This document shows positions 6,200 through 17,128 of a stretch of 22,620 bases of DNA, one piece after another (the stretch's first letter is position 1; each line of letters opens with the position of its first letter). Made by a program: the position numbers and the translations under genes. The notes under the pieces are model-generated. The model did no database searches and was not told the DNA's origin. It saw only the letters and a list, made by a program, of their open reading frames with translations. Source of the DNA: Clostridiales bacterium (GTDB lineage Bacteria; Bacillota; Clostridia; Oscillospirales; Oscillospiraceae); contig PITX01000001.1 in NCBI GenBank assembly GCA_017577345.1, forward strand, positions 1 through 22,620. Direction: 5' to 3'.

Positions 6200-7936
6200 T
6201 CATTCAATCACAATAAACCCCTCTTTTTCCTGTTTCAGTGCGTTGTTGTCGCGTTTGCCGTTGGAATGAACGGGGAATGAGGTGCGGAACTTATATTTTG
6301 TCGGTACCTCGTCAATAGGCAGACGCTCTTTACAATTCTCGTAAATCTTATGAGCGAGTTTGTTTTCGTCAAAAGAAATCTCGTTTCTCACAGTCATATG
6401 GGCGGCAAGAACGATATGTCCGTTTTCCTCTACTGCTACTACCTTACAACCGGAAAGGGACTCTTCCTGCAAAATTACATCTTCTATATCAAACATATAC
6501 ACTTTTTTTCCGCTGTCAAGAGTTGCAGAATCGGTGGCTCTGCCGAGAACAAATAACAATCCATCTTCATCTATGTATCCAATATCTCCTGTGCATCCCC
6601 AAACCACGCCATTTTTATCATTCCAGAAATAGTCTTTAGTGGCCGCTCTATTCTTATAGTACTCTAACATATGTGATGGAGAATCCACTCTTATTTCTCC
6701 ATGACATCCATAGGGTAGTTCAGCATTAGTTGTTGGATCAAAAATTCCAACATTAATGTGCGCCATAGGAATTCCTACACTTCCGCTTTTGTTGGCTACA
6801 ATACTATCTGTAACTTTGCCACCAAGCTCGCACATTCCGTACCCTTTCATCAAAGGAGACAAACAACCCTTATCTTTTAAAAAGGCATTGATTTCTATTT
6901 CGCTTTGAGGTATCACTTTTTCGCCACCCGTGAAAGGAAACTCCAGAAAAGACAGTGTCCTATTAAAGGATTTAATATGTATGGCTTTGAGCCAAATGCT
7001 CGTAGCAACAAGCACAAAGAAAGGTTTATATTTTATAACGTCCTTAACAAAAGTTTCAGCGTTAAAAGTTGGTTCCAAAATAACTGTAACGCCATTAGTC
7101 AATGGCAGGAGGACAGATTGGATGATTCCGGTAGAAAACCATACGGGAATCATTTGTAAAAACATAGCCCCGCGCTTAAATAATAACCCGGACGAAAGTG
7201 AGTCAGTTATAGTAGCATTTGACGCGTCATTTGATAAAACAATTCCTTTTGATGCGCCAGTGCTTCCAGAAGAATACACCATAATTACAGGAGTGTCCTT
7301 TTGATACGGTGCTTCGGTTTCACCTTTATAAGAAGTACCGACCCTTTCAAAATCATTCCAATGCATGAGGCGGTACGGCACTTGTGATTTCAAAATGCTT
7401 TTCGTCTTTCCTTTGAGCAAAGCAATTGTTTTGATCGGGTTCTTCATGGAATGATATACGGGAATGATGACCGCGTTTTTGATGCAGGTTTTCGGCAACG
7501 CTTTTTCTATGTAGGAATACATTTCGTCCAGAATGAAGATCCACTCTGCTTCGGTGTCGTTGATGCGGTCAATCATTTGCTCGGTAGTGAATAAAGGATT
7601 GATAAAATTGGCAATAGCGCCGATTTTACTGCAAGCAAGCACGATATAGATCGCTTCCGGCACACCGGCAGTGCAAAGGTTTACACAGTCGCCCTCTTTA
7701 ATGCCGATTTGTTTTAACGATTTTGCGCAAATATCTATTTGCTCAAATAAGACTCCATAAGAAATATCTTTGTTGAAATACCGAATGGCGATATCCTTTG
7801 GATAATTCTTATTGTTATCATAAATGTTTCTATAGACCGTACACTCCGGCGCTTTCATCGCTAACGCCTCTTCGGTGTAGTATTTCAGCCACGGTTTGTC
7901 GATGGACGGATAGCCCGTCAGTTTCTTTTCTTGCAT
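6200..7936 (-). CDS. AMP-forming acyl-CoA synthetase / adenylate-forming ligase (ANL superfamily)
   Basis: This 578-residue cytosolic enzyme is expected to activate a carboxylic acid with ATP to an acyl-AMP and usually pass it to CoA. The ANL core motifs are intact: SSGSTGASKG phosphate loop (222-231), YGMCE (366-370), TGD (449-451), the hinge region GRATD (465-469), and the C-terminal catalytic lysine in NGKRD (K561). The substrate cannot be read from sequence. No acyl-carrier protein, CoA-transferase or peptide-synthetase partner is adjacent. The ATG at 7936 has AAGGAG ten bases upstream. The gene is much AT-richer than its neighbours, uses A/T-ending codons, is monocistronic, and is bounded by inverted repeats, which suggests acquisition by transfer. 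It sits behind a structured leader and terminator (7959-8121). Confidence 0.9.
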   Translation of the reverse strand: MQEKKLTGYPSIDKPWLKYYTEEALAMKAPECTVYRNIYDNNKNYPKDIAIRYFNKDISYGVLFEQIDICAKSLKQIGIKEGDCVNLCTAGVPEAIYIVLACSKIGAIANFINPLFTTEQMIDRINDTEAEWIFILDEMYSYIEKALPKTCIKNAVIIPVYHSMKNPIKTIALLKGKTKSILKSQVPYRLMHWNDFERVGTSYKGETEAPYQKDTPVIMVYSSGSTGASKGIVLSNDASNATITDSLSSGLLFKRGAMFLQMIPVWFSTGIIQSVLLPLTNGVTVILEPTFNAETFVKDVIKYKPFFVLVATSIWLKAIHIKSFNRTLSFLEFPFTGGEKVIPQSEIEINAFLKDKGCLSPLMKGYGMCELGGKVTDSIVANKSGSVGIPMAHINVGIFDPTTNAELPYGCHGEIRVDSPSHMLEYYKNRAATKDYFWNDKNGVVWGCTGDIGYIDEDGLLFVLGRATDSATLDSGKKVYMFDIEDVILQEESLSGCKVVAVEENGHIVLAAHMTVRNEISFDENKLAHKIYENCKERLPIDEVPTKYKFRTSFPVHSNGKRDNNALKQEKEGFIVIE

Positions 7937-7958: not shown

Positions 7959-7986
7959 AAAAAAGTGCGCAGCCGAAGCTACGCAC
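7959..7986 (-). terminator. Leader terminator upstream of the adenylating-enzyme gene
   Basis: On the minus strand GTGCGTAGC-TTCG-GCTGCGCAC forms a 9-bp stem (one G-U pair) with a stable UUCG loop, followed by TTTTTT. It lies 22 bases before the start codon and inside the predicted leader. The segment 8005-7999 (CGAAGCT) can pair with 7980-7974 (AGCTTCG), which would remove part of the stem, so an antiterminated state is possible. Confidence 0.8.
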
Positions 7987-8121
7987 CGAAAAACGCAGAG
8001 CTTCGATTTGCTACCACACAAACTTTCGGCAATTCTCACGGAGACGCCAAAACAGAAGTCTGCATTTTTACCAAAGTAAAAATGTGACTCCGCAAAAATT
8101 GCCATATTCAGTTTGTGTGGT
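7959..8121 (-). ncRNA. Structured leader RNA, candidate riboswitch or small RNA (unrecognised family)
   Basis: A consensus promoter predicts a start at about 8121, exactly the first base of a 12-bp helix. P1 pairs 8121-8110 with 8024-8013 (ACCACACAAACT and its perfect complement). P2 pairs 8103-8097 with 8034-8028 (GGCAATT). P3 pairs 8092-8088 with 8043-8039 (CGGAG). P4 is a 9-bp hairpin, 8084-8076 with 8071-8063, four-base loop. A 19-base asymmetric internal loop (8062-8044) lies between P4 and P3. After P1 come a linker and the intrinsic terminator. I found no T-box signature, SRP GGAAG/GNRA site, or motif of a riboswitch I know. It could be a cis-acting riboswitch, an independent RNA of about 160 nt with a 6S-like long hairpin, or a miniature inverted-repeat element. 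Confidence 0.55.
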
Positions 8122-8127
8122 GGCATC

Positions 8128-8156
8128 ATTATAGCATAGAGTACAAATAATTGCAA
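8128..8156 (-). promoter_or_regulatory. Sigma-A promoter of the structured leader / adenylating-enzyme gene
   Basis: On the minus strand TTGCAA (8156-8151) and TATAAT (8133-8128) are 17 bases apart. It is the only strong promoter upstream of the gene. Confidence 0.8.
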
Positions 8157-14944: not shown

Positions 14945-15802
14945 TTACAGCATTTTTCCCAGCTTTTCAACGGCATCGGCGATCGCGCCCTCGCCGCAGG
15001 GTGCAGCTTCCATATAGGGCATATTACGCAGTTCCTCATCGCAGTCTGCCGGAACAAAGGCAAAGTCCGCCTCGTCCAGCATCGGAATATCGTTGGGCGC
15101 ATCGCCTGCACAGACCAGAATTTTCCTCTCGTAACGGTCTGCCAGTGCCCGCGCCGCACTGCCCTTACTGCAATTCGGATTGCCGATCTCGATGATGTAG
15201 GGCATGGAGCGCGTCACATAGCAGCGTCCGGCGCAGAAGCTGTCCAGTGCCTGACGCACCGCGTCAAAATGTGCGATCTCCTCCGGCGAAAAGTCGGGTC
15301 GCAGGACATCCTTGCCCATGACCGCACAGACCGCGATCTTGATCCACGGCTTCGGCACGGAATCGGTCACATGAACGGGCGTGAAGCCTTCACCCTTGAG
15401 GAAGGCATCGCGGCGGGCGTTGTGACCGAAGACATAATGATTTTCCACGCCCTGGATCTCCACACAGAGGGTCGGATCCAGCCGCTGCGCCTCGTGCACG
15501 ATATCCAGCGCAAAATCGGGCAGCGGATGGGCATAGTAAAGTGTCTCATCGCGGTAGTCATAGCACGCCGCGCCGTTATAGAGGATGCACGGTGCGTTGA
15601 CCGGCACCGGTGCGACGCGTCTGCGGAAGAGCGGGATACTGCGGCCGCTTGCGACGGTAAAAATGCCGCCCTCGGAGATAAAATAGCGGATCGCCTCGAT
15701 ATTGCGCTCACGCAGGGCATTGTCCTGCCCGGTCAGCGTGTGGTCGAAATCGCTCGCAAAAAATACATCGGAAAACTTACCCATAACATTCTTGTCTATC
15801 AT
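14945..15802 (-). CDS. HAD-superfamily hydrolase, Cof-like phosphatase
   Basis: This 285-residue cytosolic enzyme should hydrolyse a phosphate ester, perhaps of a sugar or cofactor. Motif I is DFDHT (nucleophile D18, acid D20), motif II ASGRS (S52), motif III lysine in CSKGSA (K213) and motif [12 protein letters not shown] (233-242). The layout, with a large cap between motifs II and III, matches Cof-type (IIB) HAD enzymes. The start at 15802 overlaps the glyA stop as ATGA, implying coupling; the ATG at 15784 is an alternative and neither has a clear ribosome site. Substrate is unknown. It shares the glycine-riboswitch transcript with glyA. Confidence 0.88.
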
Positions 15803-17058
15803 TCGTACAGCGGATACTTGTTCGTCAGCGCCGTGACAGCGGCGCGGACTTTCTCCTGCGTACCCTCGAAGTCGGCAGCAGTGTCGTAGATGCACTGCGC
15901 GATCATGCGCATATCCTCTTCCTTCATGCCGCGGGTCGTGGCCGCCGGTGTGCCGATGCGCACGCCGCTCGTGATGAAGGGCTTTTCCGGATCGTTGGGG
16001 ATCGCGTTTTTGTTGACGGTGATGTAGTTCTCGTCCAGACGGTGCTGCAGCTCCTTGCCCGTGATGTGCAGAGGACGAAGATCGGCAAGCATCAGATGAT
16101 TGTCCGTGCCGCCGGAGACCAGGTCAAAGCCGTGCTCCAGCAGTCCTGCCGCCAATGCCTTGGCATTTTTGACGATCTGCTGTGCATAGTCTTTGAAGTC
16201 GGGCTGCATGGCTTCCTTGAAGCAGATCGCCTTTGCGGCGATCACATGCATCAGAGGACCGCCCTGCGTGCCGGGGAAAACAGCGGAATTGACCTTCTTC
16301 GCAAATTCCTCCTTGCCCATGATGATACCGCCGCGCGGTCCGCGCAGGGTCTTATGGGTGGTAGTCGTTACGATGTCGGCATAGGGCACGGGGCTCATAT
16401 GTGCGCCGCCTGCGACCAAACCGGCGATATGCGCCATATCGACCATTAGAAGCGCACCGTTGGCATGTGCGATCTCGGCAAATTTTGCAAAGTCGATGGC
16501 ACGCGGATAGGCAGAAGCACCTGCTACGATCAGCTTCGGCTTGTGAAGCTCCGTCAGACGCGCAACCTCGTCATAGTCGATGCGTCCGGTCTCGGGATCA
16601 ACGCCGTAAGAAACCGCGTTGTAGATCTTGCCGGACTGGTTGACCGATGCGCCGTGGGTCAGATGACCGCCGTTGGCAAGGCTCATGCCCAGAACGGTAT
16701 CGCCGGGCTGCAGCACTGCGGCATACGCCGCTAAATTTGCCTGCGCACCGCTGTGCGGCTGCACATTGACAAATTCCGCGCCGAACAGCTCCTGTGCGCG
16801 GGCGATGGCAAGGCGTTCGACCTCGTCAACGACCTCACAGCCGCCGTAATAGCGTTTTGCAGGCAGACCCTCGGCATATTTATTCGTCAGCACCGTGCCC
16901 ATGCAGGCGATGACAGCAGGGGATGCCATATTTTCCGATGCGATCAGCTCGATGTTGCGCCGCTGACGGAACAGTTCTCCCTGCATCAGCTCGCCCACCT
17001 CGGGGTCAAAGCGGCTGACATATGCGATGTTGGGGGCAAGTTCATGGATATTGTTCAC
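15799..17058 (-). CDS. glyA: Serine hydroxymethyltransferase
   Basis: This 419-residue PLP enzyme interconverts serine plus tetrahydrofolate with glycine plus methylene-tetrahydrofolate. Visible landmarks are ELIASEN near the N-terminus, [12 protein letters not shown], the [10 protein letters not shown] region, and the PLP lysine in [14 protein letters not shown] (about K236). I chose the GTG at 17058 because AAAGGAG lies eight bases upstream and because length and N-terminus then fit the family; the ATG at 17124 lies inside the riboswitch terminator. The gene sits behind a tandem glycine riboswitch, so its level should respond to glycine. It is coupled to the downstream HAD gene. Confidence 0.97.
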
Positions 17059-17089
17059 GGTTTTTTCTCCTTTCGATGTCCCGCACACA

Positions 17090-17128
17090 AAAGAAAAAAT
17101 GAGTGCGGCCATCTCCGGCGACACTCAT
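17090..17128 (-). terminator. Expression-platform terminator before glyA
   Basis: ATGAGTG pairs with CACTCAT and an inner GCC with GGC; on the minus strand TTTTTTCTTTT follows. It lies between the glycine aptamers and the glyA ribosome site. Confidence 0.8.

Follow-up and report, generated by a model that had tools for sequence, protein, structure and literature searches.

A recurrent promoter and leader RNA cassette of Clostridia, probably a transcription-attenuating riboswitch

Organization of the locus

The window analyzed here is a stretch of 22,620 nucleotides from a Clostridiales bacterium of the Oscillospiraceae. Its minus strand carries, at positions 8121–7959, an element whose RNA is predicted, from reading of the sequence and by script, to start at a first helix, P1, and to end in a terminator. 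The features are listed below, with the evidence for each in brackets.

8128–8156, minus strand: promoter TTGCAA-17-TATAAT with an extended −10 TG, at the same position across the family and part of a conserved cassette (sequence)
8110–8121, minus strand: P1 5' strand (ACCACACAAACU), predicted 5' end of the RNA (fold, script, covariation)
8013–8024, minus strand: P1 3' strand (script, covariation)
8088–8104, minus strand: inner stem (P2/P3), 5' strand (MFE fold)
8027–8043, minus strand: inner stem (P2/P3), 3' strand (MFE fold)
8076–8084, minus strand: P4 5' strand (script, covariation)
8063–8071, minus strand: P4 3' strand, inside a conserved GGUAAAAAYGCA region (script, covariation, motif)
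8055–8069, minus strand: long-range helix A, 5' strand (AAAAAUGCAGACUUC), excludes P4 (script, covariation)
7989–8004, minus strand: long-range helix A, 3' strand (GAAGCUCUGCGUUUUU), with one bulged base (script, covariation)
7995–8004, minus strand: antiterminator B, 5' strand, common to A (script, covariation)
7975–7984, minus strand: antiterminator B, 3' strand, common to the terminator 5' arm (script, covariation)
7978–7986, minus strand: terminator C, 5' arm (script, covariation)
7965–7973, minus strand: terminator C, 3' arm (script, covariation)
7959–7964, minus strand: terminator U tract (sequence)
6200–7936, minus strand: AMP-binding acyl ligase-like protein, 578 aa, whose ATG lies 22 nt past the terminator (Pfam PF00501, E 1e-53)

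The promoter comprises TTGCAA (8156–8151), a 17-nt spacer and TATAAT (8133–8128), with the extended −10 TG at 8136–8135; given these hexamers, their spacing and the TG, a start near 8121 is a reasonable prediction. P1 is a perfect 12-bp helix (8121–8110 with 8024–8013); the MFE fold merges a 7-bp and a 5-bp helix into one 17-bp stem with G–U pairs (8104–8088/8043–8027), and P4 is a 9-bp helix (8084–8076/8071–8063). The asymmetric 19-base loop spans exactly 8062–8044 and contains part of one strand of the conserved long-range helix A (8069–8055 with 8004–7989). The terminator reads GUGCGUAGC-UUCG-GCUGCGCAC followed by six U, ends at 7959, 22 nt upstream of the ATG at 7936, and can be broken by an antiterminator pairing of CGAAGCU (8005–7999) with AGCUUCG (7980–7974). 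The fold energy of segment 8122–7959 is −70.5 kcal/mol versus −41.3 (sd 4.2) for shuffled sequences (z −6.9), none of the 200 shuffles being as low. The first-pass annotation of this DNA had described a structured leader starting at its first helix, and the promoter, P1, the inner helices, the 19-base loop and the terminator all lie where it had put them; helix A was missing from its description.

Some 250 bases upstream of the element lies a tRNA gene (RF00005; 8368–8447, minus strand), and tRNA or tmRNA genes are present in relative loci L091, L092, L097 and L112 too. Elsewhere in the window, two tandem glycine riboswitch aptamers (RF00504; 17157–17314, minus strand) are found upstream of ORF 15799–17124, whose product presumably resembles serine hydroxymethyltransferase.

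Distribution and copy number

A search of 99 genomes with the DNA of the element gave matches in 24, among them the genome of the window, which has three copies. A covariance model was then built from an alignment of 25 of the 32 loci available at that stage, leaving aside L012, L029 and five copies that were incomplete or had long inserts. With a threshold E value of 0.001 or better, it matched 26 of 150 genomes in a family-level sample, 102 of 295 in an order-level sample and 99 of 391 in a class-level sample, the window's own genome being counted in each; in a phylum-level sample of 299 genomes, that genome was the only match. From this, the family would seem to be restricted to the class, large samples having been subject to stricter filters in scoring; false matches by the model appear to be few. 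Copy numbers in the family, order and class samples are lower bounds, since only 7 to 19 candidates were scored per genome. Deeper scoring of 12 chosen carrier genomes at the same threshold gave three copies in the window's genome, nine in a congener (G010) and 30, the highest number, in G701.

A pattern scan of named records returned at least 120 stretches, 80 of which were analyzed; the model confirmed the element in 74 of these. The titles of these loci point mostly to gut Oscillospiraceae, Ruminococcus and other Clostridia metagenome-assembled genomes, among them an Oscillospiraceae assembly from goat omasum (L216, element at 6288–6452), and a named strain, Anaeromassilibacillus senegalensis An867, carries one copy. 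The model did not confirm the pattern matches in Flavobacteria (L168, L193), Pseudaminobacter (L178) and Gastranaerophilales (L153), nor those at L177 and L187. Several copies in three genomes (G300, G667 and G486) are located no more than about 250 bases from the beginning of a contig, a hint that similar copies or flanks break assemblies.

A search of Rfam 15 at gathering and relaxed thresholds, run on the window and 20 relative loci, gave nothing credible over the element. The matches on it were at chance level: in the window, ncS025 scored 14.5 bits against a threshold of 46, and in L104, SNORA68 scored 27.8 bits against 43 over the first 28 nt. The view that the leader belongs to no recognized class is thus upheld, no family having reached threshold, and Rfam holds no non-regulatory repeat family that matches it. 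The open-access literature searched, including PMC8040213, PMC2864571, PMC11109978 and PMC8632094, showed no such element, and an earlier unnamed listing may exist.

A promoter fixed to the RNA and a gene start just downstream

When 128 copies were lined up without gaps at the model start, the promoter columns proved nearly fixed: T in 96% of copies at −32, T in 93% at −31 and G in 85% at −30, then TG in 92 and 94% at −12 and −11, and T, A and T in 96, 94 and 96% at −9, −8 and −4. (This set excludes the weak antisense model hits L046, L064 and L110, five further weak or antisense hits, the twice-fetched loci L122, L124, L135, L137 and L138, and the incomplete L018.) It is this fixed position relative to the model start that places the predicted 5' end of the RNA at P1.

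For the analysis of start codons, 84 hits from named records were added, identical sequences were counted once and a flank of 150 or 200 nt was required, which left 199 or 192 copies, respectively. A strict ribosome site and start codon lie within 40 nt downstream of 114 of the 192 copies, leaving 78 without one; the corresponding numbers are 4/192 on the divergent side and 15/185 further downstream. With a looser picker, a ribosome site and a start codon are found within 120 nt in 154 of the 199 copies, with a median gap of 21 nt (quartiles 18–33). The asymmetry between the two sides suggests that the element acts mainly as a cis leader. In 14 of the 128 copies, another copy lies within 250 nt downstream. 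Tandem copies mostly have their own promoter; at L119 (750–1311), three of them, spaced by 42 and 44 nt and each with a promoter and a terminator, stand ahead of one ORF. Terminated transcripts of tandem copies with their own promoters would be short free RNAs.

Covariation and competing helices

In an alignment of 27 copies, P1, P4, C, B and A each exceed both shuffled and slid controls in cells paired and in covariation score, while the number of pairs changed on both sides is not clearly above shuffles for P4 (reached in 188 of 500) or B (78 of 500). Helix A joins AAAAAYGCAnnCUC, a consensus that covers the P4 3' strand plus the bases following it, to GAGnnUGCRUUUUU, the strand just before the terminator.

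A larger alignment of 106 copies, made by a model containing neither A nor B, with antisense rows retained along with the 25 copies used for training, showed 90.7% of the cells of A to be paired, with 91 double-change cells versus 22.4 in shuffles and 9 of its 14 pairs changed on both sides, a number that none of 500 shuffles reached. In the same alignment, 92.7% of the cells of B are paired, more than in all shuffles, and there are 39 double-change cells versus 22.3; its double-change pairs number four, the same as in shuffles (329/500). Double changes affect 32 of the 33 pairs of P1, P4 and C, the helices to which this alignment was fitted. Finally, among 84 copies from named records, some of which also occur in the 106-copy alignment, 87.6% of the cells of A are paired and double-change cells number 66, versus 30.3 in shuffles and at most 49 in slid versions; the number of double-change pairs is not above shuffles there (200/500). 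Copies inside one genome have diverged and still keep the pairing, and the A strands of a copy pair better with each other than with most foreign partners, on average 19% of the latter pairing at least as well. Altogether, covariation supports P1, P4, C, A and B, with B the weakest, mainly through cells paired and covariation score. The helices are thus kept by compensatory change among relatives in the Clostridia, the check that the first-pass annotation had proposed. Its other structural claim, that terminator and antiterminator compete, is borne out as well: the pairing is present in the window, and B and C are conserved in relatives.

Since A and P4, A and B, and B and C each have one strand in common, the members of each pair are mutually exclusive, and the element, as judged from its sequence, is probably a transcription-attenuation switch. 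The median energies of the competing helices in 120 copies are −15.7 kcal/mol for C, −12.1 for B, −15.4 for the A duplex and −12.65 for P4. In the window's element, the C state (−68.6 kcal/mol) is more stable than the B state (−67.3) by 1.3 kcal/mol; in folds of the growing transcript, P1 and P4 appear first, B-containing folds come next and C appears only once its last arm has been made.

Besides its defining property, the direct binding of a small ligand that changes expression, a riboswitch is judged by further traits, and three of these are seen here: a structure kept by compensatory changes, apart from the double-change pairs of P4, of B and, in the named set, of A; a location in the 5' leader of a putatively regulated gene (114/192); and overlapping, mutually exclusive expression-platform helices (A, B and C), each pairing being kept across copies.

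Downstream genes and viral contigs

The ligase-like protein of the window did not reach the cut-off of any of the best 25 of 102 NCBIfam families. Downstream proteins are mixed in function: among 88 of the 91 picked ORFs, many of which end at the locus edge, a Pfam scan found 42 families in all, few with more than two members, the BspA-type LRR_5 (15), AMP-binding (6) and SLH (4) families among them. A simple pattern found starts resembling signal peptides or lipoproteins in 51 of 105 proteins among those listed, and clustering of 154 downstream proteins left 68 singletons. The best 25 matches in a PHROGs scan were mostly to nameless families. A small Cys-rich protein with an ECCCDECDY-like motif recurs downstream of the element (L026, L110, L111, L130, L163, L164 and L165; the cluster has 12 members).

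Among 27 viral-contig loci chosen by the same pattern, the model confirmed the element in 20 and did not confirm it in seven. Ten of the 17 distinct viral-contig copies are followed by more than 400 nt in which no ORF reaches 40 aa; at L274, L278, L282, L284, L262 and L264, a conserved small membrane-like peptide comes after such a stretch. In several viral-contig copies, e.g. L263, L268 and L272, inspection by eye reveals AAAAAGUG facing CACUUUUU in place of AAAAAUGC facing GCAUUUUU; the A strands are conserved in viral-contig copies with a rebuilt P4. Searches of named phage genomes and of plasmids by blastn, with one query each, gave no match.

Comparison with known systems and candidate signals

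Like transcription-terminating riboswitches, the element lies in a 5' leader, has a conserved fold and an antiterminator and a terminator that exclude each other, and is followed closely by a gene; it differs from them in the rigid position of its promoter at the first helix and in being so numerous, with as many as about 30 copies in one genome, which precede unrelated genes. Riboswitches for c-di-GMP occur in several copies and have surface-protein targets in some Clostridia. The element resembles them in its many copies per genome and adhesin-like targets but has no Rfam match, and GGDEF gave no match in 26 of the 50 carriers scanned (23 are above the cut-off), which makes c-di-GMP a very unlikely general signal. 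The DAC domain of c-di-AMP synthases is present in all 50 carriers, a count that speaks neither for nor against c-di-AMP.

T-box and leader-peptide attenuators also choose between an antiterminator and a terminator; compared to them, the element lacks an Rfam match and shows no common frame between its anchor motifs. In the 73 of 128 copies that have both motifs, the spacing modulo 3 is distributed 30/25/18 over all frames, and we rejected a leader-peptide attenuator on this test, which covers frames spanning both motifs. An antitermination leader of the LoaP type was rejected as well, LoaP being above cut-off in none of the 50 carriers; weaker matches, in 49 of these 50 and in 13 of 14 control genomes, are presumably ordinary NusG. 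Finally, the sections available to us of a survey of 50 bacterial genomes describe, for example, a trpB motif supported by covariation, which has a terminator and whose P1 region holds a possible antiterminator (PMC11109978); these traits are like those of the element, and no leader of the element's kind is described there.

The first-pass annotation had suggested the acid used by the ligase as a possible ligand. The mixed targets speak for a general signal, and with AMP-binding proteins accounting for 6 of the 88 downstream proteins, the ligase is one target of many and its acid is unlikely to be that signal. The functions of the genes downstream point to no particular ligand.

Alternative explanations

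If the element were instead a multi-copy small RNA gene, i.e. a promoter, a structured 160-nt RNA and a terminator acting in trans, the gene downstream would be incidental. That nearly every copy is accompanied by a promoter and a terminator fits this possibility, as do the three copies of L119, whose spacing leaves room for barely more than a promoter, the 14 copies out of 128 that have a further one downstream, and the 10 of 17 distinct viral-contig copies without a near ORF. However, a stand-alone RNA would have no consistent downstream gene, whereas strict starts follow the element far more often than they occur on its divergent side (114 versus 4 of 192) and the gap found with the looser picker is short (median 21 nt, quartiles 18–33), the copies that precede another copy being the exceptions; moreover, the conserved antiterminator B would presumably be useless in a plain small RNA terminator. 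We consider this explanation improbable, and a free RNA of about 160 nt, an option raised at first, is disfavored for most copies. A mobile, MITE-like repeat that happens to carry an inverted repeat and a promoter is more improbable still: copies are many, some on viral contigs and some at contig ends, but diverged copies within a genome keep their pairing, their orientation tracks the downstream gene, and the geometry of promoter and terminator is conserved.

A third alternative concerns the effector. An attenuator leader responding to a protein or another RNA rather than to a small molecule would account for the functionally mixed targets, as in a global regulon, and a protein might recognize the conserved sequences of linker and loop; one candidate protein, LoaP, is, however, above cut-off in none of 50 carriers, and we regard such an effector as rather unlikely. 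The reading that we prefer, with a probability of about 0.8, is that the element is a promoter and transcription-attenuating leader cassette of a new Clostridia RNA family, probably a riboswitch. What stands of the first-pass reading is the unrecognized structured leader with competing hairpins; an enzyme-related ligand as the general signal is not supported, and a free RNA is not favored for most copies.

Proposed mechanism and implications

As to its mechanism class, the element is probably an attenuator, putatively a riboswitch, from an uncatalogued family that is unusual in its fixed promoter, its large copy number and its tandem stacking. In the mechanism that we propose, the GAG..UGCRUUUUU strand would choose its partner, either the P4 3' strand and the following bases, forming A, or the terminator 5' arm, forming B. 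With A formed, B would be barred, terminator C would form and the downstream gene would be off. With P4 keeping its 3' strand, B would form first during transcription, C would be delayed and the gene would be on. The signal, be it a small molecule, an ion or a protein, would shift the balance between P4 and A; we lean slightly towards a signal that stabilizes A, and would thus turn genes off, on the grounds that viral-contig copies with a rebuilt P4 still have conserved A strands. A single signal would thereby govern as many as about 30 genes, a regulon for surface proteins, lipoproteins and accessory functions.

A more specific proposal, to which we give slightly less than even odds, is that the family forms a new class of riboswitches sensing a common signaling compound, which would control a large regulon by way of a portable promoter–switch cassette, shared by the chromosomes and viruses of gut Clostridia and sometimes stacked in tandem, with strand exchange (P4/A, A/B, B/C) as the decision step.

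About a quarter of the class-level sample (99 of 391 genomes) carries the element, and in some genomes its copy number rivals that of a major regulon. The promoter being fixed to the RNA, sequence is enough to delineate such a regulon, and the copy in strain An867 would make the element testable in a named strain. If the element is a riboswitch, it would reveal a signal by which gut Clostridia set their surface proteins and viral genes.
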